64,000 nt of DNA, from positions 13,994,354 through 14,058,353 of the forward strand of contig JAUPFP010000001.1 of NCBI GenBank assembly GCA_036925085.1. The letters run 5' to 3'. Each line of letters begins with the position of its first letter. Position 1 is the first letter of the stretch. The stretch comes from Brachycybe producta. Its lineage: Eukaryota; Arthropoda; Diplopoda; Playtdesmida; Andrognathidae. Below are positions 15,090 through 54,626 of the stretch, piece by piece. Under the pieces are notes generated by a model. It had not been told where the DNA came from, searched no databases, and saw only the letters and a list, made by a program, of their open reading frames with translations. The position numbers and the translations under genes were made by a program.

Positions 15090-15932
15090 TGTAACGACCC
15101 GACTTGGTTGCTACAATGACCTACGGCAAATTTCTTTAACTTACCGCCGTTGACCCTCCTTGGGACGGGTCGAAGCGCTGGCCAGCCCTCCTCTTGCACC
15201 CGTCCGTGCCACGGGTAGCGCCGATCGGAGGATCCTCCCCGCCACAAGTCGACGGACGATTGACCGCCGAACAAGACGAGGAATCCACAGTAAATCCCCG
15301 ATGGATCTTACCGTGGAACCGCGCGCGAAGCACCGGCCGACATGCCGAAACACATGACGGAATAGGACGGTGATGATGACGGCGTTTCCCCACCGAAACC
15401 CCCCACCCTCCTCGCGGTAACTTCCCCACAATGTATTATTAAAGAATATAATAATAATGGACACGGACACAGTGGTTGGAGAGAGTGAAAATAACAAGAT
15501 ATAATTTATTCACAAGGAATATATAAAAACACTCACTGTAATCAGGCAATATCTGCTGGTAAATTCTACCAGCAGAGAGCCAAAACAACTGATGCAATTG
15601 ATGAATAAAAGGTGAAACTCCTGGCTAATCCCAGCCAGGAGGAGAGGTTGTTGCCCTCCTTACAAGCAGCAAACAAAGAGATGAATGGTGGCCATCTTGG
15701 CCACCTGTTGAATGATGAGCATACACACATCCACCAACAAGGGTTCACTTTCCACTGTCCAGTATACAATGGCCACCGCCATTATATACACCCCCAGGCT
15801 GCTCCACCTGGGGGAGGACAGGGACCCTTGCTGGCCATTCTGTCGTCTGCCTGGCAATGAATTTAGCAAGTGCCTAGCAGACGACATGGGATTTAGTTCT
15901 GCACCAAAAATGAGCAGAAATGGGTCGTCACA
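15090..15932 (-). repeat. 5' LTR of E1 (type I)
   Basis: 843 bp, TGTGACGACCC...TCGTTACA on the minus strand, matching 2,873-3,685 with small indels. It contains the donor-like GTAAGT at 15,144-15,139, 49 nt from the LTR 3' end. The direct repeat pair bounds the E1 coding region and defines its size. Confidence 0.92.
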
Positions 15933-15933
15933 C

Positions 15934-16221
15934 AGGAAATAGTAGAAAGGCTAGACAATTGGAAATAGTAGGAAGGCTAGACAATTGGAAATAGTAGGAA
16001 GGCTAGACAATTGGAAATAGTAGAAAGGCTAGACAATTGGACATAGTAGGAAGGCTAGACAATTGGACATAGTAGGAAGGCTAGACAATTGGAAATAGTA
16101 GGAAGGCTAGACAATTGGAAATAGTAGGAAGGCTAGACAATTGGAAATAGTAGGAAGGCTAGACAATTGGCAATAGTAGGAGGCTAGACAATTGGAAATA
16201 GTAGGAAGGCTAGACAATTGG
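15934..16221 (+). repeat. 26-bp minisatellite, about 11 copies
   Basis: Head-to-tail units containing AGGAAGGCTAGACAATTG, period 26 bp, with a few substitutions (GAAAT/GACAT/GCAAT at the unit start). The core CTAGACAATT recurs at 15,951, 15,977, 16,003 and onward to 16,210. The period is not a multiple of three and units carry TAG triplets, so it is not coding. It lies exactly between the E1 5' LTR and the gag region of E3. Confidence 0.9.
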
Positions 16222-16245
16222 TGAAAGGAGTTTCAGATAGTATTA

Positions 16246-36264: not shown

Positions 36265-38133
36265 CTTTGAAAATCAAAGAAAATAATAGCTTACAAAGAA
36301 CCCACCCAATAAGCTTGGTTGCTGGAGCCAAAAGTAATTACAGTAGTATAGGAAAATACATTTCTGGGCCATTTTTTCCCATAGACTACTATTGGAGGCA
36401 CATTTTCAGTACCACATTCCAATGTCTGTTTTTTTCCAATGTCGCCTCTCAAGCGTAGCCAGCTATTGTTATATTGTTTACAACACTTCTTCCTCATTTT
36501 TTTCAGTACCTCATAGAATTACTTCAAGCATAGCAGCCAAGGCCAATTCATTGTATAGTAGCAGTGTTAAATTGCTGGAGAGAATAAAATATTGTTTTGA
36601 CCTACTTTTTTAATTCTCATTGTTTCTAGTTTTATAATGTGAAAGAAATAAAAATTAGCTGAATTATACTATTGTTATATTGTTTACGCCACTTCTTCAT
36701 TTTTTATTTTATTTATTGTAATAAAACTTGAAATGATTATCATAGAATTACCTGCTTATGATAGTTATAATACACGTAGGCATACAAACAATGTAGTTTA
36801 GTTTCCTTTTAGAATTAATTATCCATAAAATATAAGTATATAAGCAATACAATAATAATTCATTTTAAAATTAACATCTCATTTCAACTACATCTCATCT
36901 ACAACTCAGTTCATCATTGACGATTCACCGTGTTCCTATAATTTGTGAATCTGTGTGCTACAAGCCTACGTCGAAGCCGGCTCTTCTGAACTTTCACTTG
37001 GTGGGACTTCATTAAACAAAAGAGATGAGTAACCTGGTTTTGCATACTATTATTTAGTGGTTTCGGTCATATGGTCATTTCTTTCATGTACCAAATCAGA
37101 GTTTATTAATCACAACGTTCAATAAATAGTACTATTATCATAGGAGCATAAATTAGAATGTCTGTTCTTACTACATGTTTTTATATGAAACCCTGAATCC
37201 CTATACCAACATAGAGGGTATAGTTGTCAACCCATAATGGGAGACACAGGGAGGTGACAAATTGGTGGCATCGGTGGGGATAACGATAAAAATGGATGCT
37301 TAGTTGATATACATTTTTAAAAAAGTTTGAACAACAGGAATTTCATCAAGAACTTTTTTTTTGTCAATCTGCCCTCGTAACACTATTGAGTAGCACTATA
37401 TATGTGATTTTGGTACTCTCAATAATACTAATTCAAATTCATTTCACTACTACACTTATAATTTTATAGCCAATAACTATTCTATGTTATCCTATCAAAA
37501 GTTGAATTTTGACACTGACAGAGTGAAAATTAGTTAAATTAGTTAATTAGAGTTAAAAATTAAAAGCTTAAAAAAGTTACTTTTTAACTTTTTATTATTT
37601 TATTAGCTCTTATTTCCCAGCATTGTTCAATACGAAATTGGTAAAATAATTAGAAATTGAGTTTTGCCATTTTAAATTAACTGGTTGAAAACACTTGTTT
37701 CACACTTGCCCTATTTTGTGTGCTGAATTTTAATTCGATTTTTTATTGCTACCTGTTTTCTGTTTTTCTTCAAAACTGGCTGCAATGTTGCTAATGGCTT
37801 TGTTTTAATCATTTTAATATGTAATTTCATATGTAATTCAGTGATGAGACATTACATGAAGTCAAAATGTTTTTACAAAGTTTGACGAAAAATACAGATT
37901 ATTTACGGCCATCTTGGCCATGCAATGAGCCATGGACGTGCTTAGACTAAAAAAATGTTGGATTTGTGGTGTGCCAAACAAGGAAAAATATATAAGTATG
38001 ATTTGTTAAATCATGAAGTTTTAAAATCTACATACTTCAACTTAATTCATGAACGTGATTATACTTACCATGGTGAAAAGGATGTGAAATTCCCAGATGA
38101 TTTATGCAATAAGGTGTAACAAGCTAATTTACT
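36265..38133 (+). repeat. Copy 1 of the Polinton-like segment (left part)
   Basis: Matches 55,430-57,300 over most of its length, for example AGTATAGGAAAATACATTTC (36,346 and 55,434), the AATAATTCATTTTAAAA stretch, and ACATGAAGTCAAAATGTTTT (37,852; copy 2 near 56,985). It holds a heavily decayed copy of the protein at 56,973-57,552 with many stops. It ends at 38,133 where the gypsy fragment E4 starts, and its continuation is at 54,928-55,430. Confidence 0.8.
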
Positions 38134-38872
38134 TGGTGGGAGAAATTGCGGCCCGCCGTGTGGGCCTACAACACTGCGGTGCAGGAGAGCACGGAAGTGT
38201 CTCCGTACCAATTGCTGTTTGGGCGTGAGCCTAGGTTGGGGATTGACAATCTCCTTCCTAACGGTCCGGTCCACGACTTGCCCGACCAGCAAGCCGTGGA
38301 GGAGCGTGCTCGCCAAAATTTGGCGGCCACTCAGGCAAAACAGAAAAGCCGGTATGACGCCGGCCGGGTGGAGCCACCCCTATACCAGCCTGGTAATAAG
38401 GTCTGGATGAGGAATATGGCTGGGAAGCTCGGTCAAGCCAAGAAGTGGAATTTCGCTTATAAGGCTGAACTGGGTACGGTGGTCCGGCAAGTTTCCGACC
38501 TGGTCTACGAGGTTGATTTCGTAGATGGGTTTGGTCGGAAGGTGCGGGACCGGTTTCACGTTGATAACTTGAAGTCGTACGTTTCCACATGTGGAGTTCG
38601 TGAGGAAGGTGGCCTGGGTGGCTCTGAAACCTCATCGAACTCCGAAGGAACCAGGCGAAGCCGAGTCCGAGGCTGATGGAGGTGCCAGGAGGGACGATGT
38701 CACTCCAGGACCCTCCGGTCAGCCTGGCTTGGCAGTAGAGTCTACCGACTCTGAGGCAGAGGAAGCACCTCAGCCTAGGTATAACCTCCGTCCGAGGAAA
38801 CCGAAGGCTTTCGAGGTGGTTCAACCTTCCTCTGTTGCACCAGTAAACACCAGGATTCGTCAAGGACTATGA
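38134..38872 (+). pseudogene. Integrase C-terminal fragment of E4
   Basis: In-frame from WEKLRPAVWAY through SPYQLLFGREPRLGI, YDAGRVEPPLYQPGNKVW and GKLGQAKKWNFAYKAEL to RKVRDRFHVDNLKSYV. After a shift near 38,640 comes the acidic tail with YNLRPRKPKAFEV. Very similar to E1. The catalytic core lies upstream and is missing. Confidence 0.88.
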
Positions 38873-39866
38873 GCCCTTGCCCTGGTGGGAGAGATCAGGC
38901 CGATCCCTGGAGTGGGATGATGGCCAGATCCGTAGAAATAAAATCTGGGAACCCAGAGACCCCTGGACGGGTCACCGCCTGCCTGTCACGGACAGATGGC
39001 GGTTGTCCAGGGTGAACTGGGTGGAGAAATCCACAAATCCCAGGTGCAGTCTTAAATTAACGTCTGCAGAAGAAATTTCTAATGAAGAATCAGGATTTCC
39101 GGATGCTACAAAGAAAAAAGTAAGTCCCCAAAAGGGAATTTCCTTTTCCTGCCCTTTGGCAGTATTGTTTTATTGCTTTTGGGTGTGTCAAGCGGCCATT
39201 GACCTTTTGATCTTTTTCAGGTAGCCACGGCGGAGAAGGAAGATACTGGTGGGGGCGGCGGTTCCTCCTCCCTTAGCTCTTTGCATCCAGGTGATGCGGA
39301 GCTGTTGGAGTCAGATGCCGCTTGCTCCCCAGACTCGTTGAGTCGGGCCATTGCGGACTTGACCGACAGCGGACCTTTGGGTCTGCTATTGGTCGAGGAC
39401 GCTGTGTTGGCAAGGCCATCCCCTCGGACCCCTCTATATTATGGGTCTGAGTTGGGACAGTTGACACCGCCTCCCACCGTGGAGTCTCCTAGGGCGACCA
39501 TTAAGTTGGGAGCCAGGGAGATTCCGGTGTTTGGTGAGCCAGTGCCGGCTAGCATGCCCGTCGGAGAGGTGGCCACCAATTTGGCGGCTACCTCCCTGAC
39601 GAAGTGTGAGACTCCGGCGACCAAAGCCAGCTAGAATTGGCTAGCCTGGCTGAGGGAAGCAGGGATGCCTCCCTGGTAGGAACCCCCGGTCATAGACACG
39701 GAGGCGGAGATGGACACCACCGAAGATAATTTGGTGCCCTTCTCCAGGCGGTGGCGAGGCCAACGTATCCTCTCTTCAGAGGACTCTTCGGAGTCTGAAG
39801 GGAGAGGATCAGGCTCCCTGGGTAAACGGTCGTTGACCATACCCCAGGAAGGTACTCCAGCTATTA
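38873..39866 (+). pseudogene. ORF3 of E4, 5' part with a short intron
   Basis: Exon 1 ends with ATKK before GTAAGTCCCC at 39,120; exon 2 starts with VATAEKEDTGGGG after TTTTTCAG ending at 39,220. The 101-nt interval contains a stop and is not a multiple of three, and its removal joins the two frames exactly. Exon 2 (SLSSLHPGDAELLESD, PRTPLYYGSE) stops at 39,634, and matching sequence goes on (RWRGQRILSSEDSSESEG) to the insertion point at 39,866. Confidence 0.75.
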
Positions 39867-39984
39867 CCTCCAAGGTTACATAAAAAAATTGTTTTAAATG
39901 CCATAAATCAGTAAAATATGTTAAATTACATTGATTATGAACTTCATAGCTAATTGTTTCTATTGTTTTAACGTTTTTTACAAA

Positions 39985-41465
39985 AATTCCAAATGGGTGC
40001 CACTAGTGGCATCATTCCAAATCGAAATATTGGTCTAATAAACATACTATAAGCGTAAACAATGGACAATTATCTTCCTGATTATGAATTTCATATCATA
40101 TTTCCATTTGGCTAATGATATTTGTGTGTACCGCATATTTGGCTGTGGTCATTCCATTTGGCTGTGTTTGGCTCATTTGGCTAAAAAAAAAATTGTTTTA
40201 AAAAGGTTACATTGCATACAAATATTGGTTTTTGTTTGTTTGTTAATTATTTGAAACAATTGTGTCATTATCTCAATTACTTTTTGAGATATTAAATATT
40301 TGGCTAGATTTGGCCAGCCAATTAAGGCCAAATTAAATAAAAAACTTACTTTTTGTTATGTTTATCTATATAGATATTGGATGAATAAAAAGTTACAAAA
40401 AAATCATGTTTCAGTTTTTTGAATATATAATTAGTTCTTGACCTATAAAGCATTTGGCCGCCATTTGGCTGGGCAAGTGCCACATGTGGCACTCTTTCCA
40501 ATGAAATGAAAATTAAAACTCAATTTATTTAAAAGTTAACTACATAGAGCTTGGATAAATGAAAAGATATAAAATAACCTTATTTTAGTTTTTTGAATGC
40601 CTAATTAGTTTTTGAGCTACAAACAATTTGGCCGCCATTTGGCTGCCATTTGGCTTTTTCAGTGCCACTGGTGGCAACTTTTCCAGCCAAATGATGGAAT
40701 TTGGCTTATTGAGTGCCACATGTGGCACTTTTTCAGCCAAATGCTGGAATTTGGCACATTGACTGCCTATAGAATATTTACCAGCCAAATTCTGGAGTTT
40801 GGTTGATTAAGTGCCACATGTGGTGCCTTTTCCATGCCATTTGGCCGACATTTGGCTTTTTCAGTGCCACTGGTGGCAAACTTTCCAGCCAAATGCTGGA
40901 ATTTTGGCTTATTGAGTGCCACATGTGGCACTTTTTCAGCCAAATGCTGGAATTTGGCCTATTGAGTGCCACATGTGGCACTTTTTCAGCCAAATGCTGG
41001 AATTTGGCCTATTGACTGCCTATAAAACATTTACCAGCCAAATGCTGGAGTTTGGTTGATTAAGTGCCACATGTGGCGCCTTTTCCACGCCATTTGGCCG
41101 ACATTTGGCTTTTTCAGTGCCACTGGTGGCAAACTTTCCAGCCAAATGCTGGAATTTGGCATATTGAGTGCCACATGTGGCACTTTTTCAGCCAAATGCT
41201 GGAATTTGGCTTATTGAGTGCCACATGTGGCGCCTTTTCCACGCCATTTGGCCGACATTTGGCTTTTTCAGTGCCACTGGTGGCATAAATTCCAGCCAAA
41301 TGCTGGAATTTGGCTTATTGAGTGCCACATGTGGCACTTTTTCAGCCAAATGCTAGAATTTTTCTTATTGAGTGCCACATGTGGCCCCATTTCTAGCCAA
41401 ATGCTAGCATTTGGTTGATAAAATGCCACATGTGGCATTTTTTTCAGCCAAATGCTAAGCAATGC
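39985..41465. repeat. Array of two alternating palindromes
   Basis: Palindrome P1 is GTGCCAC-AT-GTGGCAC (about 15 copies; some have TG at the centre). P2 is an inverted repeat with 7-bp arms GCCAAAT/ATTTGGC around a 6-bp spacer GCTGGA (about 13 copies). They alternate with a period near 50-54 bp from 40,640 to 41,465, with sparser copies at 39,988 and 40,478. A higher-order unit containing GGCCGACATTTGGCTTTTTC recurs at about 40,848, 41,096 and 41,249. Not coding in any consistent frame. Confidence 0.9.
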
Positions 41466-42102
41466 GCCATTTTATTAAAATCGCGTCAACAAAAATTGCC
41501 AAACGTGGCAATTTTTGACTATTTTTCTAAATAAACAAAAATATCCTTATATTCTTAACTAAAGATCTTTCTATATCAATTTGTAATTTGTGGCCTGTCA
41601 GTATGCACAACAATCAGAAGTGCTACCCCTTTAATGGCACATTAAATATCATGTTTTTTGTTTTCTTGTTCACCGGTTACGTATCGTTAACGTAATTTGG
41701 TTAACGTCCAACTATTTTGTCAACATTTTTTACCATACGTTCTATTGAATTTTTCAAATTTTTATATTTGCAAATTTTCTGTTAAGAATATTTTCTCAAT
41801 GGCACCTAAAGAAGGTAAATGTCAAAATCATATTTATGATAACATTATTTTCTCTGCCATCTGTATGTCCTTCCTGGTCACTCATTTCTTATGATACTCT
41901 TGGAGCTTCCATAAAACAAACATATTTCCCTGGTCACTTGGTTACTTTATCAACACTCTTGGATAAACATTGTTTTTAGTTTCTTCTTGGTCACTCATTT
42001 CTGATGATACTCTTGAAGTCTACATCATAGTGATAATTCTTATTTTGTTGTGTTATGTAATTCAAGTTTAAATTTTAAATGATTTAAAAATTAACTGCTG
42101 CG

Positions 42103-45100
42103 ATGGATCTGCTCAAGGATCCGATGATTGTGCGGGCTTCTGCCAGTTCTTCGGCATCTACTTTTGAAGTTTCTTCGAAACGTGTGGTAAGAATTACTTT
42201 TCCTTTTTTAACTTATTCATTTTGTTCTACATATATATATTATATCTTATCTTTTCTTGGTTTATTGTTCAGAAGAACAAGAAGCACAAGGAACGAAAAG
42301 TGACGGACTTTTTCTGCAAAGAGGCTGAACTGACTAGATCAGCCAGACGCAGGAAAAGATCAGAAAAGAGACGATCAGCTGAAAAAAGAAAAACTCACCA
42401 AAGGTTAAGCGTGTATTTATGGAAAAATCTTTGAGTTTATCTATTTCACAACAAAGAACCAACCAATGACAAACCAAAAACAGACACTCACAATGACAAC
42501 TTACCACATGACACTGATTATCAACACCCAAATGACACTGAGACATACAACGCCAACACCAACTACAACACTAACACTGACAACGAAACTGATGAGGATG
42601 ATGTTGATGATTATGACGATGACTTCATTGACAAGGACTACTTACCAGAAAATGAACAAGACAACAACAACAATGATGATGATGACAATGACGAAGAACT
42701 TGACAATGACAATGGACTTCACAATGAATTTGACAATAAACTTGACAATGACAACGATGATGATGACAATGACGACGAATTTGACACGAACAACATACCA
42801 GCTGAACTAGACATTAACCATGACCCACCGAAAACCACTGAAAAAAACCAACCAGACATACCAAAAAAAAAAAAAACGCTTAAACATTTTCTGTAACATT
42901 TGCATACCCCCAAAAGCAACACATGGATGACTTTCTCAACACCTACACAAACTGACAGACAAAAAGGAACGTATGCAAAAAAACAACGCAATCAGGGACG
43001 CCTTTTTAGAAAGTTTGAAAGCTACTAATACTACTACTACTAGTACCTCGAACCCTAGCACATCTAAAAAGATTCTAGAAACCACTACAATAAAGAAATT
43101 CCTCGGTGACCTCTACGTCAAAGAAACATACAGAAGAAGAGGTACTTATTTTTTTACCTTTGACATGTATTTAGTCATCACTAAACTTTTTCATCTATTC
43201 CCTTAAGTTGAAAACCTACTGGACCATCTAGGATTCTAGATCATTGGACAAAAACAACAAGTTGAAAGAAACGAGGATGTTCCTGTAGACAGCGACAGCG
43301 AAAATGACCGAATCTACAATAAAGACTCAGCTAAAGGGAGACTGCAACAACAGGGGCTTTACGTCAAGTTCGATGACGACTTTTTTGTACAGTTTGATGA
43401 GTATTTGAGATCTGACAAAGGCATCCAGGACCACCGTAAGTTTCTAATCTTCAAAACTTAAGTATGTAGTACATTGACATTAACCATTTATTCTTGTTAT
43501 TTTTTGATAGGACACCAGACAACCAAGGTCCATCATGTATCCCGATTATTGAAATATATAAACAACCAGAAAGATATTCCACTAAAGACACCTTCAACAA
43601 GCCTCCTCACAGACATCGAGAGAATTCGTTCCTATGCGAAGGCCATGGGAGAATTTGTTACACCAGATGCAATGCAGACCTTTTTTACTTCCATCATTAC
43701 GTACTGTGACTTCCTTTCTGTGGGAACCAACTTGAGGACTGAAGGTAACACAGTGAAAATATTCATTTTATAATTTATAATTCATTTAAATGTTTTTATT
43801 TAGATCGTCAACTGTTTGACGACATTCAACACGTCAAGACGGCCATCAAAACAATGAGGAAACGGGCCCAAAAAGATGGGAACAAACAGTGCAGGAAAAG
43901 AAAGTTCCAGGTTGCTGTTTTGGAGGAGAATGTCCCAAACCCAGTGACTGCCACAAAACTACTGACAGACGAAAAGAGACAACAGGAGTTTAGGGAGGCT
44001 ATGGAATACTTTAAGGCGGGACAAAAAATGCATGTAAATAAATACATGCTAATCACCAGGTTTGATGAATTTAAATTAATAAAACTTACTTTAAAATGAT
44101 TAATTGTATTAATAATGGTTACTTTCTAGGATGCTCATTGCAAGGATTTGTTTGATGGCACAAAGGCCAGGTGTAACAGACAATTTGAAGGTTGTCGAGT
44201 TTGCGTGCAGCAAACGAGACAACACAACTCAGACGTGGGGTGTTCAAGTGGAGGAGCATAAGACGTCGGGGACATGCTCTGCAGGATTTTCCTTAAATGA
44301 TGAAGAATTTAAAGACATGCAAGATTACCTTTCTTATGTTAGGTCAAAGGTAGATCTAGATGGAAAAAATGAGTATTTTTTTATCAATACGAGAGGGAAT
44401 AAGTCTCCTGGATCCCAACAAGTTCATCGGTAAGTTTTACAACTTATACATTTTTATCAACATATATGGAATGTTTCTGTGCTTTTGTAGGATCACTTCA
44501 CAATTCAAATGCCCTGCAAATGCAACCCTAGCCCGCCATGCTCTACAAACAAAGGCTCAGGACTTGCCCCTGACTTTGCGGGAAGAAGTCAGTAAGGGCA
44601 TATCTCACCAAGAGTCCATGGCGGTCAGAAGGTACCGCACATTAACAACGAGCACTGTATGCAGGCGTGGGAAATTGATATCTTCTTTAATGGGTAAGTC
44701 TTAAAATTATAAAAAAATTGAATCGTAGTTTAATTTGTAATTTTATATCATAACAGGAGTAGATGAAAAAACCCACCTGCATGCAGTGAAAAACAGGATG
44801 ATGATGACGATACCGACTTCGAGCCTGACCCAAAAAAAAGAAAATGTGTAGGTAGTAATAAAAAAATTTCATTTGCAGAACCGACGAAACCAGTGGAGTT
44901 GTTACCTCTGGAGGAGGTTTTAAAACCTCACCGGTTTTTAGAGGTAACTTCACAATAAATTGTGCAAGTAATAATTGCTTCATAAAGATTTATTTTACAG
45001 GTCTTACCTTGTGAGCCTGATGGCTCATTTCCATATGATGCAGCCCAATTAATGGAAGTGAAGTTTGGCCATCAAATGGACACTGCACTTATTCGGTGTG

Positions 45101-45866
45101 TTCGAAATAAGTGGTATTACCAGCAGGATATTCAACGGGCCATGCTGCTGAACTCTACCATGTAATTTAATAGTATTTTTTGTACTTTTTTTGAAATAGC
45201 GTTTCTAACTATATTTGATTCTCAGTTTTCGAAGACGTACTATTAATCCAACCATGGAAGAAATAAAAAAAGAAATTTCGAAGAGAGCATGGCCGAGTGG
45301 TGACAACATTGTCAAGCGTTGCTTATGCTTGTGGGCCCCTTCAGATGACGAAAGATCCAGTGATGATGTTGAAGCAAAGGTACAAAGAAACACATGGCCT
45401 GGTTTAGTCATTGGAAATTCACATGGCCGTGGAGTTTTTTCTACATAGTTGTTCAAAAAAGGTACACTCTGTTCATAATATAATAATAATATTTGTTCAT
45501 TTTTATTTGTTTTTGCTTAGGAGACATAGTCACAACATATAATGGTGAAATAAAAGAAAGAAATGATGGAGAGAGCGTCAACTCAACAAAGGAAATGAGA
45601 TGTGCTACGTCCACTTTTTCAGACATGGAGAAAAGCATTTAGCCATAGACGCCACCATTGATGACGGCTCATTTGGAAGAGTCATCAACCACTCCAAGTG
45701 GAACTTCAATTTAATTGGAAAGGTAATGACGTTTGGTGGTAGGCCAAAAATTGTGTTTTTTGCTTACAAAGATATACAACCTGGAACCGAACTCACTTAT
45801 GATTACTTGTCCGGTTCCAAACCAACTGATCAAGAGTTAATCGACTTTCCCTGGCTTAATTCATGA
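42103..45866 (+). pseudogene. Tyrosine-recombinase-like and KMT5A-like SET fusion gene, broken
   Basis: About 12 exons with GT-AG introns (e.g. 42,103-42,186; 42,273-42,403; 43,208-43,435; 43,511-43,744; 43,804-44,059; 44,130-44,429; 44,491-44,693; 44,757-44,943; 45,001-45,161; 45,226-45,460; 45,521-45,866). N-terminus: basic region with VTDFF, like the PCNA-binding degron of KMT5A, then an Asp/Asn-rich stretch. Middle: recombinase-like helices with AQRPGV (possible catalytic Arg), EHKT, a RHAL region and RRYR (possible Tyr). C-terminus: SET domain with GRGVF, GDIVTTYNGEI, GRVINHSK and ELTYDYLS, ending PWL as KMT5A does. KMT5A monomethylates histone H4 K20. Breaks: stops near 43,233 and 45,447, frameshift near 45,570. 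Confidence 0.75.
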
Positions 45867-46084
45867 TTTTTATGTATTTCTTTTTAGATACTGTTTATTT
45901 AATAATTATTTTCAGGTATCATCTAATGATTTAAATTTATTTATAAGTATTTTGTTAATATTTATTATTTATTTATAGGTATTTTGTTAATATTTATTAT
46001 TTATTTATTATTTAATTAGTTTTTTTTTACAGATTATATTTTATACATATAGTAGTCTATATAGTAATTTCAATTACTACTCAA

Positions 46085-46186
46085 GCCAGGCTGACCGGTG
46101 GGGGAGAAGGCCTTGTTTTAAAGGTCTTCTGGGGACTATCCTCTTAATGGATAGTGCTGGGGTGGTCCAGGCCGGTCACCCACATT
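46085..46186 (+). other. Possible structured RNA or multi-branch fold
   Basis: TGACCGG (46,092-46,098) pairs with CCGGTCA (46,172-46,178), enclosing two hairpins: AGAAGGCC/GGTCTTCT (46,105-46,130) and ACTATCC/GGATAGT (46,135-46,155). It is GC-rich in AT-rich surroundings, downstream of the SET gene and just before the CACTA. It could be a 3' element of the host mobile element or a SINE fragment; no known RNA family is recognised. Confidence 0.35.
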
Positions 46187-46196
46187 ATTACTTCTT

Positions 46197-46440
46197 CCTA
46201 GCTAGAAATTTTCTGCAGTATTTTAACAGGATTCTGCAAAAATTCTACAGCTTATTCAGAAATCTGTAAATTTTCTGTAGGAAATTCATAGATAAAAACT
46301 GAAGTTTTTAATAACTGCAAAAAAACTACAAAACATTGCTTAATTTTTACAAACATTTTTTTGTATCAAAGTTATTTCACATTAGAAAAACTGCAGAATT
46401 TTAAAAGTTAAAAACTGCAGTTATGGAATTGCATAAAATC
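46197..46440. repeat. Left inverted end and subterminal repeats of the CACTA
   Basis: After CCTAGCTAGAAAT come TTTTCTGCAG, ATTCTGCAAAAATTC, TTTTCTGTAG and AACTGCAG. The right counterpart (about 52,330-52,572) has TTTTTCTGTAG three times, AAAACTGC and CCTGCAGAAAAAC. Such motifs are probably transposase binding sites. Confidence 0.75.
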
Positions 46441-46605
46441 CTCAGATTTACTACAGTTATTTAACATACAATTTAATTAATTAACCATTAGTTTATCGAT
46501 ATCTAAATTAATCACGCTCATATGTATTGGAAAGAGGACAAAAATAAACTTGATCATTGACAGCAATTTTGATGTACTTTTTTTCAATGCTACATGGAAA
46601 AAATG

Positions 46606-49333
46606 CTATAATAATATTTCATCATCTTGATTTTTAATTTTTTTTGTTTTGAATTGATGACCAAGAATAATAACATCCTCATTAATAATCACTATTTTGC
46701 TTACTTCATAACATTTCTTGGAAATGCAAACATAACAGTCGTGTTTTTTAAATGAAACACAGTAGTCAATGCATGTCACAAGGGTATGATTATAGACCAT
46801 GCGACTGAAAAATGTAGCCTGTGCAGGTATTACAAGATCTGGGCATAATTTAGAGATAGCACTTTTTTTTAAATTTGTCAAAGATTTTGATTTTCCAACT
46901 GCAAATACTGCAGCTCCATTTGGTAAAGTGATTATGTGTTTCGTAGGTGTGAAACTACAACACAACTTTTGAAGAAAACAATCAACAGACTCATTTTCAA
47001 TGATGGATTTGACATTGAAGGTTTTTTGTAATGCAAAGCTCATGTATGCTGTAACAATTTGCTCATGAACACCTTTAGTTCCATGGTGCAGTTGTTTCAA
47101 TCTTCCAAGACTTCCTTCAAACATAAAGCATGAATGTGCCCACAAAGGTCCCCAATTAGAAACTGAGAGGAAGGTGCAATAGTAAATGGCAATTGTATGT
47201 CTGTTCTTCTATTCCATAATTAATTTTTATCATATAAACAAATTTTCCAAAACACTTTTTTGCTACATCTATGTTTTTTTGAGTAACCACATTTTGTAAC
47301 AAAATAGTTATGCCATGTACAAACAAAAGCCAGTGTTGATAATAAGGAACTGGCAATAAATTCATAAGTATTAGAGGAGAAATAAGCAAAAATGTATGCC
47401 ATTCAGTTGCCTTCCAGTAGGCTCTTTCATCAATACACCTTGGGGTTCTAACTACTTCATTGGTTACTCTTACAGCTTTCAGCCTTTGATTAATCTCATT
47501 TTTTTTAAGACCAAGATAATAACCCATTTTAGGTTTATCAAACCAAAGATTAGTCAAACGCCTACAAACACCCAATAAAGCACAGTGCATGTAATCAGGA
47601 ATAAAACTGTTGACAATGTTAAAGGATGGCAACTTCATTAATGTGGATGGGCCTTTAACACCTTGCACTGGTTTTTGTAACTGAATGGCATCAATTGCAT
47701 TTTCTAATGTTGTTTGAGAATCTCTTTGAGGAGGTAAAGGTAAAGTGGTAGGATAGACTCTTGAAAAACCTTTCCCACATGGTATTCTTTCACCTTTATG
47801 CAGGCACATAGAACACCCAAATTCACCATTGAATTGAGTAAAATTTTGAATTATGGCACGGGCAGGAGCATCTGCAGTAAAAATTAAATTTATCACTTTT
47901 AAGAACACTTTGATCCCTGACATATTAATGAAAAAGCCTTCATGCTCCAATTTTTTGCATTCGTCAACAAAAGGTACCAGAAAACATTCATTCATTACAG
48001 GATTTTCAGGACCAAACCACAAGCCTGTTACCATAATATTATGAGACCTTTCATAAAGTGGAAGTTCAACAATTCCACATTGTATTGGCCAGATTTTGTA
48101 ACCAGAACTTTTGTACATGGGGAGTCCATCGGAATTCCACAATAAAGAAATACGAACAGTTAAAGAATTATCATTTTTTTTAAATCTCTGTAGTTGTCTC
48201 CATCAATAATATCTTTATACCCACTTGTGTGACCTTTATTATGACTGTACTGTTGCAGTTGTTCTAACAGATCTCCACTTTCCAGTTTTTGCAGAAGTTG
48301 TTGCTTAAGTGGCATATACATAAAAAATGAACCTTTGTTCATTAATTCGTTTTTGGCAAAAACTTTTTTACATGAAACACATTGCTCTATTTGTGTTATT
48401 CCGATATACTTTTTGCATAAAACACAGTAGTAATGTTGCTGAGAAATAATATTCTTTTTCATTGACTTAATCAAATTTACTGAAGAAGTAATATGTTTTT
48501 GGCAAATCACATGGTGAGGGCAATAACAAATGCAGCAACTGTAAAAATGCTTCTTTGCACTGTTTTGATAAATTGAATTTCAGAAAAAAAGAAAGAATGC
48601 AATACAGAGCAATGCTTTTTGAAATGCTTGAATTTTCATAAATCGGGCGATCAGGAGGTTCAAATGCACCAGTTCCATCACTAGCATCATCATCATGAAC
48701 ATGTTCGCTGGATGTCTAAATTATTTCAATGTAAACAATGTTAGAAATATGTCAATTTACATATGCAATAATGCATATTTACATCAAAATCCGAGGTGTC
48801 TAGGTCATACTGATTATGAACCTCAGTGTCAGCCGGTGTGTCTGATAATAAGCCAAATACAAACTCCTGAGGAGGCAATTGATCTTCGTGATAACATTCA
48901 AAATCCTGCATTGCCATTGACTCCTCAACAGTACTAGTTAAAGTATCTCTAAATTCTCCCTCTTTTTCTTGATACAACTCAGTTATATCAAAATAAACTT
49001 CATTTTTAGGTGATGATCCTAATTCTTCATTATCGAAATGTTCATGGAGAAGGATTGGATTTGATGGCTGATCATAAGCTATGGAATGTATTAAAATATA
49101 ATTACAGTAAAAAAATAATTGTTAAAATTGTTCAACTAATATGCACGGCTCATGCAGTTGTGTATAGTACAAGTACATAAGTATATACAAGTACAGTAAT
49201 ATATACCAATTTGTGTTTCCTGATCAAATCAATGTCGTATTTTACTTCTTTTAGGTACAGGTTGTGAATCTGGTGCAACAAGATACTTTTTATATGGACC
49301 ACGTTGATTCCGAAGTGAAACTTTGTTATCCAT
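46606..49333 (-). pseudogene. CACTA-type transposase, animal EnSpm family
   Basis: Exons run right to left: 49,333-49,207 (start MDNKVSLRNQRGPYKKY), 49,080-48,782 (acidic), then about 48,715-46,606. Landmarks of the family: an N-terminal Cys-rich region (YCVLCKKYIG, CVSCKK), LLWNSDGLPMYKSS, PIQCGIVELP, TADAPARAI, FGCSMCLHKGERI, IPDYMHCALLGVCRRL and WAHSCFMFEG. These resemble the DDE-type transposase with the DUF4218-like C-terminus found in plant and animal CACTA elements. Shifts near 48,170 (A run) and 47,160 and a stop in the first exon break it. It cuts and inserts the element via its ends. Confidence 0.85.
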
Positions 49334-49510
49334 AATTATATTTTTAATCCCAAATTTGTTACAAATACCATACCTAATTTAAATTGTAAATACCAGAGTT
49401 ATTTGGTTTATTTTGCAAATTAAATTACATGTTAAAATGTGTAATTTAATTACATGTTAAAACATTTAATTTAATTTGCTAAATAAACCAATAACTCTGA
49501 TAATAAATAT

Positions 49511-49977
49511 ATGGTTATAAAAATCTAAGTTACATGATTTATTTTAGAATTATAATTTAAATTATATGATTTAATAAAGCATAAAAAATTAAATTCACGA
49601 CGAGGTGAAAAATGACTTCTATTGAATTTAATTGTAAAAAATTTCAAGATTTTTGGCATTAAACTTTTATAATTTATTATTTATAAAAACAATCAACAAA
49701 AGTAAGCATAAAAACTTATAAATATTTTACAATATTTTCATATTATATTAGCATAAAAGTTTAAGTTACATAATTTATTTTAAAATTATAATTTAAATTA
49801 TATGATTTAATAAAGCATAAAAATTTAAATTCATGAAGAGGTGAAAAATCACTTCTATTGAATTTAATTGTAAAAATTGCCAAGATTTTTAGCATTAAAC
49901 TTTTATAATTTATAAAAACAATCAACAAAAGTAAACATAAAAACTTCTAAATATTTTACAATATTTTCATATTACAT
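49511..49977. repeat. Tandem duplication of about 237 bp in the CACTA
   Basis: Two consecutive copies (about 49,511-49,747 and 49,748-49,977) of very AT-rich DNA, recognisable by GGTGAAAAATGACTTCTATT versus GGTGAAAAATCACTTCTATT and AACAATCAACAAAAGTAAGC versus AACAATCAACAAAAGTAAAC. It lies between the two divergent genes, so it may contain their shared promoter. Confidence 0.7.
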
Positions 49978-50379
49978 GTGTAAGTACTTACAAGTCTCTA
50001 TGCAGTTTATTATATATTTGATCTCATTTCAGTTTAATTAAATTGTAAATTAATTCAAATAGTCATGTGGCTAAATATTATAGCTTCTACACAGCCAGTG
50101 ACTTTCTCACATTTTGAAAGGAAGTGGGTGGGGGTGAAGAAAAGCTTAAGACCGTGAGAAAGTTACATTATTTTGCTTTATTATTGTGAATATTGCTTGA
50201 TCATGTCAGTCAGTTGTGATGGCTGCACATCCAATAGAAAACACTAGAAGAAGTAACCAAACTCAACTAAGAGATCTATAACTGTTGTGTTTCTTTTGGA
50301 ATAGTTTTACTGTAACTGTACATTTTGAGTTGAAAAGTTATAAATACAAATTCTAGTAGGGTTTATTGAATGCTTAAAA

Positions 50380-51735
50380 ATGTCTTTGGTAACGGAAAGT
50401 TTAAAAACATATTTTGCAATCGTTTATTTTAAATGAAGAAAATAAGTACAGTGTAGTTGGTTTGAAAGATCTTGATGATGAGTCAATTTTAAAAATCAAT
50501 GAAATTTGTGACTGTCTTCGTGAATGGAAAAAAACTGATGTTGTTGCAGTCAAATGGGATGCAGAGTTTTATCCTGCAATAATAATCCATTTCGGAGGTA
50601 ATTTTCTAATCATGTTTATTAATTATAGCATTATTATCTATTCTATAAATTAATAAATTTCTAGTTAATATTTAAAAAAAATATACTCAATTCAATTAAT
50701 GTTTTTTATATTATATTTGGTAACTTCAACTAATTTGTTCATGAGTTAATTGTATAGTATATTTTATATTCATTTTTTTATTTTGAAATCACATCATAAT
50801 TCAGATGGAGAATAACAATACATTAATTGTTAATCTAATTAAAATTATAGAAAACCAGAAAAAAATGGAAAAAATTATTGAGAGCTTGACTAAAGGAAAA
50901 GTTTTGCAAGAAGATTTGCCAATTGTGCTGCAAAAAACCAAAAATCAAAAAAACAATCAAAACAAGTAAGTAAATTACAACAGAAATAAAATAAAATAAT
51001 TACCATTAATAAATTTTTATTACTTAAAACTGCCTATGTGTTATTATAGGGAAAACATGCAACACAAAAGTGAAAGTTCTACAAGGCTGTCACATGAAAA
51101 AAAAAGCTGCCCAAAAACGAACCCAAAATCAAGATATGACTGCTCTACTTGCAAATATCACAGGGTCAAGCACAAATAAGAACTGCATGAGTTGTTTTGA
51201 TTTTCAATGTACCATAAAACGTCAAAAGGTTGAAATTAACGAAATGCATGAAAAAATTAAATTTTTTGAAAATGAGACAGAAGACCTAAGAAATAAGGTG
51301 GAAAAACAAAAAGCCAAAAAAGAAGCTCTCAAAAAAAAACTTAATACATACAAGGATGGAATGATGAAATCGAGTAATAATAACAGCCAAGTTAATGAGG
51401 CAGAGCAACAAGTAACTATTGGCAGAAATCTTAAAATGCCACAAAGAAAACTTACACTGTGCCATATAACTGACTACAGCAAATATGTGAATGACATGTT
51501 AGTTGTTGTTTTTGGAAGAGAAAAATTAGCAAAAAGTGTGCTTAAAGGGATCAAGTCTTCAAGAAATAAAGAAATTTTGGATCGTAACATAATTGAGGAT
51601 ATTGAATCCCATGTTGTCTTAAAATTTAATGTACCACGACAACTGGTCAGATCTTCGATCAGAAATAAACTGAACAGTGAAAGCAAATTATTGGCACGTG
51701 CACAAATTAATGAATCAGAACAAAGTGTTGACTGA
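50380..51735 (+). CDS. BEN-domain protein encoded in the CACTA
   Basis: Probable exons: 50,380-about 50,600 (MSLVTESLKTYFAIV, shift near 50,432, then YSVVGLKDLDDESIL and AVKWDAEFYPAII), 50,805-50,965 and 51,050-51,735. The last exon has a coiled-coil (KIKFFENETEDLRNKVEKQK) followed by a BEN-like domain of about 90 residues (YVNDMLVVVFGREKLAKSV, KFNVPRQLVRSSIRNKL). BEN domains bind DNA and act in chromatin and transcription; animal BEN proteins often have a short N-terminal module with a KFY/EFYPA-like segment, as here. A role in regulating the element or binding its ends is an inference. Confidence 0.7.
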
Positions 51736-52589
51736 TAAGTGAATACAAATAAAATTGTATAATTGCATTCATATATTAAAATCTCAATTGTAACATTAAA
51801 TGTTTTGCCGATCAGTATATAAACATTTTGAATTTATATAATAAAAGCGCTTAAATTCTTATGCACTCAAAAATAATTTTTTTTTGTTTTCATACTTTTG
51901 TTATAAGCTTGTATCTATGCTATGTAACTTGTTTGTATTAAATAGAAAATAAACTATCAGTTTCATGAAAATGTTTCATTTTTTATACAAATTAAGGGGG
52001 AACTAACTTGTGAAATCTTAGGCTGAAAATCAAAGCAGAAAATGCATTTGTGCCAAAAGGTAAACAAAATTGTATTTTTAATACAACATCGATCCATTCA
52101 TTTTAGGGGAAAAAGGATAAATGTGCCCATCTGTTTTCTGTTATGATTTTCTTCACAGAATTCAATATGCGAATTCCCTCTTATAATCTGTTAATAAAAT
52201 AAATTATAAATTCAAAATTTACCATCTGAAATGTGATATTTGAGTTTGTTTTTCGGAATATTTACAAAATGACCATTGCAGCTTGTGATCAGCTTGTGAT
52301 CACCCAGCTGGTGATCATATTCAGTAGAAAAGCTGCACCCATAACAGTATTTTTTTACAAAAAACTGCAAAATTATTTTCACAGATATTCTATAGAATCT
52401 TTGCAGCTGACTGAACAGTCTGAACTGCAATATATTTGCAGTTTTTCTGTAGAACAGAGGTGACAAAAAACTAGAGAAAAACTACAGGCAACTTCAGTTT
52501 TAATTTGCAGTTTTTCTGTAGAAAAACTGCGTTTAATTCCTGCAGAAAAACCGTAGGACATTTCTAGCTGGGTTGCAATTGAATTTTTT

Positions 52590-52945
52590 AATAAAATGAA
52601 TTTTCCATCATTTCATCAAAATGTGTCGTTTTTTGTTACTTTTTGTTAGTGTTTCGTTTGTTTTTTGGCTCTTTGAATCAAATAGATTTTTGTATGCTGA
52701 ACACACTGGTGTTTTCAGATTGAAAATCCAATCAGTAGTTTTTGAGTTATTGAATTTTTTGCAAAAACGGCGTTTTTTATATTTGTTGTTTCATTATTGA
52801 CGCAATGTGCCGTTTTTTGTTAATTTGAGTTAGCTTTTTTAAGTTAATTGTCTTCACCCTAATAAATCTGATAGATTTTGTATGCTGAACACACTGGTGT
52901 TTTCAGTTTCTAATTTGGATAATTAGTTTTTGAGTTATTGTCAAA
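52590..52945. repeat. Two direct near-repeats of about 170 bp right of the CACTA
   Basis: The block TGTATGCTGAACACACTGGT, followed by GTTTTCAG and TTTTTGAGTTATTG, occurs at about 52,692 and 52,878, each preceded by a CCGTTTTTTGTTA/TCGTTTTTTGTTA motif. The phrase TAGTTTTTGAG also occurs on the left side (40,608), supporting that both flanks of the CACTA belong to one element. Confidence 0.65.
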
Positions 52946-53254
52946 AAACAAAATAGGCCTTTTTTTGTGTTTTTTATTATTAAATCAACAACCAACACCT
53001 TGCATCCCTTATGCCCGCCAAACTCCAGATTTGCGGTCAGTAGAACTTAGAAAAATTTCATTATAATTTTTGAAAATATTTTCAAAGTCCAACAGCCGAT
53101 GTTTTGCGTCACCTATGGCCGTCAAAATATCAGATTTTCCATCACTTTCATTTTTTTGAAAATAACTAATTTTTACTATTAAAAACTGTTTATTATTATT
53201 GAAAATAATCAAAAATAACATCAAAGTAATGTTTAAACATTATTGGAACATGTG

Positions 53255-53440
53255 CCACATTATAATACAATGTGCCACTAGTGGCATTTTTCTTGTGCCA
53301 CCAGTGGCACCTATTTCATGGAATAGTACATTGAAGTGCCACTGGTGGCACCGATTTTCACCCATAGTGCCACAGGTGGCACCGATGACCAAAATTCCAT
53401 CCAGCCGTTGACCTGAAAAGTGCCACTGGTGGCACTTGGA
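53255..53440. repeat. Right-end palindromes of the candidate element
   Basis: Five palindromes GTGCCAC-NN-GTGGCAC with different centres (TA, CA, TG, AG, TG) at about 53,273, 53,296, 53,336, 53,367 and 53,421. They match P1 of the left array. The last one ends about 20 bp before gypsy ORF3 sequence resumes. Confidence 0.85.
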
Positions 53441-53456
53441 ATCAGGGCGGCTTGGT

Positions 53457-54626
53457 AGGGCATTCCAATTCCGGTCGACCCTGTTGGGGAGACAGAAGCG
53501 GCCTGTCTGGAAAGGCAGGACAAATCCGGGCAGTATCAAACGGCATCAGGTGGTTTCCAGATGCCGGATGGGAAATGCTACTTCGTTGGGGAGTACTCTA
53601 CCCAGCAGTTCAAGAAGAAGGGTTCAAAAACCAAAAAGTTCGGAGCTGCTAGGTACACCGCCAGGATGAAAGCTCTGGCGGAGAGGGAGGATCAGTTGGA
53701 GAGGATGAAGGCTGTGATGGCGAAGTTTACACCGGCTGTGGGTCTTCTCCCTGAGTCTCAAGCTCATCCTGAGAGAGCCGCAGGGGCTGCCTGGCCCGTC
53801 GGCCAACCACTTGTCACGGGTCCGCCTGCGACAGTGGCTGGTCCTTCGGGTTGGCAGTCTGCGACTCCCAAGAGAGACCGACGAGCGGAAAAGAAGGCCA
53901 ATCAGCCTTCTCCTCCCGCTCTGAGGAAGAGCACTCCCGCTAGTGGTGGTGGTGGTCAGGGACAGAAACGTCCCCGCCCTTTCACCCCACCAGTGGCAAG
54001 TAATCTGGTGGGGAAGAAGGCCAAGACTTCTCGTGGAGGTCCGGCCGGCTTCCGAAAAAAAAAATTGGAGCCAGGAGGACCGCTTGTGGTACCACCAGGC
54101 ACAGGCGGCAAGATGTGCTGTCAAAGACTAGTACAGCTTCGGCTGGAAAGTCCGTGGACACCGTCGTTGCCATCATTTGCCATGCAATGTGCTCGCATTT
54201 GGCAATAGACTATCCGGTGTTGCTGGTCGTCAACCCGGTAAGGGGATGCTACGCTGTTCTAGATGTTGTGGGGACAGGAGCTGGACTAGTTCGTATAGCC
54301 CACCTCGCAGCCCCCTACGTCCAGCATCTCCCCACCCACTACGAGAGAGCGTGTCCGACCCCGCAGCCGCCCTCGTAGACCTTCTGACAAGTCGGACTCT
54401 ACATCAGAGTCCGCAACTTGACACACTTGCCATCGAAGAGTTTCAGCAGCAAGAGGTGTCAAGACTCAGGGGACGGATTTCGATCTCAGAATCGGGTGGC
54501 GAAACACCCGGATGTGCTCGTGGTGGGTATGTCGGTGGCTGTCGGAGTGGATCGTGGTGGGTATGTCGGTGGATGTCGGAGTGGATGGTAGCTCCGATGG
54601 ATCCACCACCGAGGAAATCAGTATAA
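53457..54626 (+). pseudogene. ORF3 of E4, 3' part
   Basis: Resumes with IPIPVDPVGE and continues through YFVGEYSTQQFKKKGSK, ARYTARMKALAEREDQLER and KRDRRAEKK. An internal deletion near 54,110-54,180 removes most of the basic region. The C-terminal domain (VLLVVNPVRGCYAVLDVVG) follows with shifts and a 48-bp near-duplication of CGTGGTGGGTATGTCGGTGG (54,520 and 54,553). Not functional. Confidence 0.8.

Follow-up and report, generated by a model that had tools for sequence, protein, structure and literature searches.

A mobile element family whose gene likely joins a divergent tyrosine recombinase to a KMT5A-type SET lysine methyltransferase in the millipede Brachycybe producta

Can a mobile element carry, in one protein, both an enzyme that would move it and an enzyme that would write on histones? 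This question is raised by a predicted gene at positions 42,103-45,866 of a 64,000-nucleotide stretch of the Brachycybe producta genome (hereafter the window; contig C1, positions 13,994,354-14,058,353, in an assembly of 295 Mb and 442 contigs). The twelve exons of the gene (e1-e12) encode a middle part that resembles the tyrosine recombinases (YRs) and an end that is a SET domain of the KMT5A/SETD8 type. The DNA around this gene is a mobile element, here termed the YR-SET element. We consider it likely that its only recognised gene codes for a fusion of a tyrosine recombinase with a SET lysine methyltransferase of the KMT5A type, and we propose a mechanism for the two halves. The counts given below cover the 18 loci with the YR region that were read (3.2-5.4 kb each, the window locus among them), with YR-exon matches at C3:8,756,761 and C1:8,030,928 left out. 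Copies were grouped into subfamilies A, B and C by similarity, without a tree.

All twelve exons lie on the plus strand and were placed using splice signals and comparison among copies, the limits of e1-e4 being the least certain. The gene has a putative start (MDLLKDP) in e1 (42,103-42,186) and a basic region in e2 (42,273-42,403, with an uncertain 3' end), which are followed by e3 (42,927-43,141, limits approximate), e4 (43,208-43,435, start approximate), the helical-looking e5 (43,511-43,744), which resembles a YR core-binding domain by reading alone, and e6 (43,804-44,059). The putative YR catalytic part is divided between e7 (44,130-44,429), which holds the box I Arg in QRPGV and the hairpin Lys in EHKTSG (HKT), and e8 (44,491-44,693), which holds the box II Arg, the His and the nucleophile Tyr (RRYR) and has the motifs NATLARHALQT and SHQESMAVRRYR. 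An acidic, lysine-rich linker in e9 (44,757-44,943) leads into a linker conserved among subfamilies in e10 (45,001-45,161), while e11 (45,226-45,461) contains further linker and the start of the SET domain and e12 (45,521-45,866) its core, with GRVINHSK (INHSK), ELTYDYLS (YDY) and a PWL end. The motifs of e7, e8 and e12 were checked and sit at the positions that a preliminary description of this DNA, made from the letters alone, had assigned to them.

A structured block was also noted 3' of the stop codon (46,089-46,181, plus strand), common to subfamilies A and B. It folds better than shuffled sequences (z -2.4 on one strand and -2.7 on the other), its GATAGTGCTGGGGTGGTCCAGG is nearly unchanged in A and B copies, and one outer-stem pair is changed on both sides. 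An Rfam search with this block returned matches that were all far below the gathering scores.

The joining of a YR-like part and a SET domain in one gene recurs at other loci, and a search for further copies with both domains found them, leaving the earlier claim of a fusion standing. Exon e12 was present, in some copies only in part, at 14 of the 18 YR loci, and only part of e11 at two more; neither e11 nor e12 was found in the stretch examined at the other two. From the side of the SET domain, 17 of the 18 matches in the genome lie inside YR loci, the remaining one being a host KMT5A-like exon (C140:15,277-15,486) at which the YR exon searches gave no match. Splice scans identified in-frame donor and acceptor sites joining e9-e10-e11-e12 in the copy at C1:8.43 Mb (c8432) and in c57, and in-frame sites for the e8-e9 junction in c57. 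The latter copy, found where a contig stops, differs very little from c8432 and may therefore be the same locus assembled twice.

Both parts show a low ratio of non-synonymous to synonymous substitution rates (dN/dS) among close copies, for which the pieces compared were picked by similarity and dS is saturated between subfamilies: between the window copy and c8432, c57 and c18602 it was 0.08-0.11 for the YR part and 0.15-0.19 for the SET part, with less low values elsewhere (SET 0.41-0.68 in some B pairs; YR 0.44 in one C pair) and an uninformative YR value of 2.69, on a dS of 0.004, for the near-identical pair c8432/c57. Divergence among the copies is considerable, with B copies having 62-69% identity to the window in the YR region and the SET domains of one A copy and one B copy being 54% identical. 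Chance or read-through as the origin of the fusion is ruled out by its recurrence and by dN/dS.

Some observations weigh against an intact fused gene. The splice scan did not find the e8-e9 junction in c8432, in which e8 and e9 were judged continuous by reading, and none of the e8-e10 junctions was convincing in the two B copies scanned. In addition, the window copy is itself broken, with one in-frame stop (e11) and two frameshifts (e9 and e12), so the continuous reading of the window gene in the preliminary description had to be given up; the stop and the frameshifts are absent from copies elsewhere. We infer that the YR-like and SET halves form a single spliced transcript, and a single fused YR-SET protein is fairly well supported.

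The YR-SET gene resides in a mobile element family. In the window a dispersed repeat on the plus strand, gypsy-like by reading, is interrupted after its left half (38,128-39,861) by 13.6 kb of inserted DNA (39,862-53,447, plus strand), after which it resumes (53,448-54,100, plus strand), with clear homology from about 53,454. This repeat is uninterrupted at the insertion point in 11 of the 11 other copies examined, of at least 39 other scored matches. The break that had been described in a gypsy open reading frame (ORF) is thus real and the host DNA is a dispersed repeat; its gypsy identity is by reading only, and the two flanking ORFs gave no Pfam match. Both ends of the element, which like the gene are on the plus strand, were found elsewhere. 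For the left end (39,862-40,110), a divergent copy of subfamily B at C1:7,623,530 gave a match of 68% beginning at query base 4, and the right end (52,572-53,447), which terminates in ...TTGGAATCAGGG and has five palindromes at 53,273-53,434, recurs in the C1:8.43-Mb copy with a different flank. Subfamily B has a right end of its own sequence, common to three copies with differing flanks, and a second YR-SET copy has an empty site in 75%-identical sequence at C10. The mobility that had been proposed for this DNA is therefore borne out by uninterrupted repeats, by ends with other flanks and by empty sites. Where an empty site allowed comparison, which was the case for two insertions, no long target duplication was seen; each of the two shows some extra bases, few in number, at one of its ends, and a fixed target duplication is not established.

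The interrupting DNA proved to be two elements. In the sister copy at C1:8.43 Mb, sequence corresponding to window positions 42,205-46,196 is followed directly by that from 52,572 onward, and because this copy is without the intervening segment, 46,197-52,571 is a later, separate transposon. Without it, the YR-SET element is about 7.2 kb. Its absence from the sister copy also rules out a single 13.6-kb composite element with a DUF1258 transposon as its motor. The nested transposon (minus strand) is unrelated to the YR-SET element and encodes a DUF1258-type protein on the minus strand (E-value 1e-7, just under the Pfam cut-off), and its plus-strand ORF at 51,028-51,735 has a weak BEN-domain match. 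We take it to be Plavaka-like, and its ends resemble CCTAGCTAGAAAT and its inverse.

What kind of protein is the middle domain? Based on the register of its motifs and on profile comparison, it is most likely a tyrosine recombinase, albeit a very divergent one. A profile of ten element sequences and one relative was compared to a profile of seven YRs from annotated records (XerD, FimB, FimE, IntS, IntD, lambda Int and Cre), producing a score of 32.0 (E-value 3.3e-4); the highest score among 100 column shuffles was 20.2, and that among 13 unrelated proteins 19.0. In that alignment HKT coincides with the catalytic Lys, LAR with the box II Arg, SHQ with the His and RRY with the Tyr. With one more relative added the score was 32.3 (E-value 3.1e-4) versus at most 18.9 in 200 column shuffles, and QRPG also falls on the box I Arg. 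The score stays at 24.2-30.0 when any single reference YR is left out. The YR catalytic set of R, K, (H/K)xxR, H/W and Y is present in order with one substitution, and the Lys is kept in 14 of 17 rows, the box II Arg in 13 of 18, and the His and the Tyr each in 15 of 18, where the rows for e8 take in a relative on contig C2 that is free of SET.

A number of results count against this assignment. The hhalign probability of the comparison is only 38-39%, and genuine YRs each score 48-200 versus the other six. Compared singly to the element profile, six of the seven YRs score 12.5-18.7, like unrelated proteins, the seventh being FimB with 28.6. The element profile without relatives scores 24.1, and the C2 relative alone (16.1) and two SET-free relatives together (18.5) are within the range of the shuffles. 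As for the residues, the box I Arg is present in only nine of 17 rows, with six of the eight exceptions being R to H or C, and 16 of 18 rows have Thr in place of the box II His, the first residue of HxxR. Searches of Pfam, PHROGs and PDB sequences with e5-e8 gave best E-values of 0.022, 0.011 and 0.12, respectively, none of them to a YR. The recombinase assignment of the preliminary description is supported by a profile score above all shuffles, short of proof given the low hhalign probability and the absence of a significant match in these three libraries.

Wider searches were negative as well. The Pfam model Phage_integrase (PF00589) had no candidate in the genome. Protein database searches, which were limited by length and shared words and say little on distant relatives, returned none of 5,816 candidates at an E-value of 0.001 for the joined query of 639 amino acids and none of 16 candidates at an E-value of 1 for the catalytic query of 168 amino acids. 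No relative was found in viral and prokaryote contigs, and none of the phage records searched with the SET-free relative matched. An AlphaFold model of one exon alone had a predicted local distance difference test (pLDDT) score of 43, too low for a reading of the fold.

The same results could be accommodated by an element that is mobile with its fused gene and whose middle domain is some other DNA-binding protein, the mobilising enzyme coming from elsewhere and the SET domain being a passenger or regulator. That no family library recognises the YR region, that the hhalign probability is low and that the box II His is not conserved would all fit, and the two ends of the element have a short imperfect similarity, seen by eye only, that could suit a DDE enzyme. 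We nevertheless think this reading unlikely, as R, K, R, H and Y are in register in an alignment that outscores every shuffle in the runs of 100 and 200, and each of K, box II R, H and Y is retained in 13-15 of the 17-18 rows. Nor was another enzyme recognised in the element: ten further ORFs (short ORFs of the repeat array left out) had no Pfam match over the cut-off and no reverse transcriptase, and no ORF in the last 0.9 kb is longer than 101 amino acids. Moreover, in both insertions for which an empty site is available, any target duplication is limited to a few bases.

If the middle domain is a tyrosine recombinase, what would it bind? The perfect palindrome TGCCACNNGTGGCA occurs 17 times in the window versus 0 expected. 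All 17 are inside the YR-SET element, with none in the nested transposon or the rest of the window, and 12 of them are at 39,998-41,437 (plus strand), mostly in a tandem repeat array. Beside the right end of three subfamily-B copies there is a different, equally symmetric palindrome, GCGTCACNNGTGACGC. Both arms of the palindrome have changed together, as a dimeric DNA-binding protein would impose, and the YR part may be the protein that binds the palindromes.

The SET half was more readily placed. Read with X at the breaks, e11-e12 of the window matched the Pfam SET model with an E-value of 9.4e-16, and a search of PDB with the SET domain of a single element (c8432) had KMT5A/SETD8 first (E-value 1.1e-19; MLL, 3.4e-10). 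A SET profile in which the host KMT5A-like row was included again had KMT5A as its closest match. The relationship to KMT5A that had been suggested from motifs is thus supported by the best PDB match, most of the catalytic positions and the PWL end. Exon e12 could be compared in 15 rows, of which 14 are element copies and one is the host KMT5A-like exon; the active-site Asn is kept in 11 of these rows, the His in 12 and the C-terminal Trp in 10. Two further active-site positions are taken here to be Tyr334 and Tyr336 of KMT5A. The second, Tyr336-like position is Y in all 14 rows that have a letter, and the Tyr334 position is Tyr in four (the host among them), Phe in nine and His in one, with subfamilies B and C having Phe. 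The element domain is like KMT5A (SETD8, PR-Set7) in its best-matching SET family, most of its catalytic positions and its PWL end, and differs from it by following a recombinase-like part and, in subfamilies B and C, by having Phe, not Tyr, at the product-specificity position.

Such a replacement might be taken to indicate that the SET half has ceased to be an enzyme and now binds histones or dimerises, guiding the recombinase to particular chromatin, and it is consistent with this that dN/dS is higher for the SET part than for the YR part, reaching the upper values given above in some B pairs. However, Phe at the switch position is known to alter product specificity without abolishing activity, and the Asn, His and Trp are kept in most rows, and the second Tyr in every row with a letter. 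We therefore regard a non-enzymatic SET half as improbable. For subfamilies B and C this leads to a sharp prediction, namely a changed product specificity.

The mechanism that we propose for a fused recombinase and methyltransferase is as follows. The recombinase half would bind palindromic sites near the element ends and would cut and rejoin the element via a tyrosine-linked intermediate, and the element would insert without a long target duplication. The SET half would methylate histones on the element or at its target, probably at lysine 20 of histone H4 (H4K20), as KMT5A does, and this methylation would help expression, access or timing. There is fair support for a YR part that moves the element using its palindromic ends, and weak support for the idea that the SET part may methylate a lysine, H4K20 or a different one, at either the element or its target. 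Because monomethylated H4K20 (H4K20me1) is reported to open chromatin (PMC8379281), the role that suggests itself most readily is one in anti-silencing or access. A further step would be self-marking, in which the protein positioned at the palindromes would place an H4K20-type mark on either the element or its target and so couple chromatin state to excision and insertion; we put this forward tentatively and with more doubt than expectation.

An uneven distribution of the copies may bear on the same question. A total of 15 of the 18 YR-SET loci are on C1, a 22-Mb contig representing 7.5% of the assembly (binomial p 9e-15), and seven of the 18 are between 7.62 and 8.44 Mb on it, some in tandem. 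Two other families are less biased, with 11 of the best 40 scored matches to the flanking repeat (p 9e-5) and eight of the 37 best matches to the SET-free relative on C1. Copies that duplicate locally, that are lost slowly from a region rich in repeats or that insert with a bias could each account for it, and it might also reflect insertion guided by such a mark to sites close to existing copies. That the copies crowd on one contig, some in tandem, and that the window copy is broken might also be explained by there being no mobile element, only a multigene family of the host, or a KMT5A pseudogene read through by chance beside unrelated DNA. This is highly improbable given the uninterrupted repeat in 11 of 11 other copies examined, the C10 empty-site relative of the second copy, the presence of the fusion even in copies that have diverged, the low dN/dS between close copies, and the element ends common to copies with different flanks, which together with the empty sites rule out a host gene family.

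At one place on this contig (C1:8,009,903-8,017,745 onward), the right end of a subfamily-B element abuts the next element within the latter's 5' region, head to tail; a nested insertion was considered for this pair at 8.01 Mb and rejected, as the left flank does not fit. COX1-like stretches were also noted on C1 (12,697,416-12,698,753) and C17 (4,027,703-4,029,047), perhaps nuclear copies of mitochondrial DNA, and the window has a separate tandem repeat array with a 26-bp period at 15,883-16,233. A further COX1, on contig C442 and translated with code 5, has millipede sequences as its nearest matches (Abacion 90%, Antrokoreana 89% and Narceus 88%), which points to a millipede host, probably of a genus other than these.

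The SET-free relative offers another view of how the fusion arose. Its protein, at C2:2,069,289-2,069,786 (2.07 Mb), has the YR region in common with the element, and a search with it gave 150 scored matches, several per locus. The 37 best matches, on many contigs, have at least 83% identity over at least 159 of 166 residues, and five loci of the family have the same open frame of 671 amino acids with the same score. That this relative of the YR domain is so abundant and dispersed counts in favour of the proposed reading. This search also reaches e7 of the window directly (E-value 4.4e-4, 32%), and two YR-SET copies are at the foot of its match list. Apart from those two copies, no SET match lies within 10 kb of the relative's loci by coordinates; it seems, then, that a single branch either acquired the SET domain or retained it. 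The presence of a SET-free family in the same genome provides a natural control for the role of the SET domain. A C2H2-like motif was seen by eye in this family, for which Pfam gave only an E-value of 0.35.

How does the YR-SET element compare with known systems? Crypton and DIRS/Ngaro elements are similar in having a YR-type enzyme. Cryptons resemble it also in that, among the ORFs scanned here, nothing else was recognised as an enzyme, and in that a long target duplication was not seen. Unlike these groups, the YR-SET protein matches no known YR model, and the element has palindromic arrays at its ends and a C-terminal SET domain. There was no Pfam match in e5-e8 to the Crypton YR or its DNA-binding domain, and the element was not filed as a Crypton. 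It also differs from DIRS in that no reverse transcriptase is recognised: the ten element ORFs scanned had no reverse-transcriptase match that would indicate a DIRS/Ngaro-type reverse transcriptase-RNaseH beside the YR. The recombinase-like part looks like an unrecorded branch of the eukaryotic tyrosine recombinases.

Two precedents concern the SET domain. HarbingerS and MuDR are DDE-transposase groups, and SETMAR has the opposite domain order to that found here, where SET is last. The HarbingerS and MuDR DNA transposons of Phytophthora encode a SET methyltransferase and are similar to the YR-SET element in being mobile elements with an acquired SET histone methyltransferase gene (PMC12730594). 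They differ from it in that the SET domain here is of the KMT5A type and forms one protein with a YR-like part, and in that the host is an arthropod. SETMAR, in primates, is described as a single intact copy of the Hsmar1 transposase fused to a lysine methyltransferase (PMC9062482); it likewise has a recombination enzyme and a SET domain within one protein, whereas in our case the multi-copy element itself carries the fusion.

No report of a YR-SET fusion was recognised in the open-access literature searched (PubMed Central only). Transposons carrying chromatin enzymes are known but few, and in the YR-SET element such an enzyme is built into the recombinase-like protein. This makes testable the idea of a mobile element that uses histone methylation to control its own movement; if true, a jumping gene may mark the chromatin that it leaves or enters. 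Compared to what was already known, namely transposons with SET genes and a transposase-SET fusion, what is new here, within the literature searched, is the fusion of SET to a putative tyrosine recombinase.

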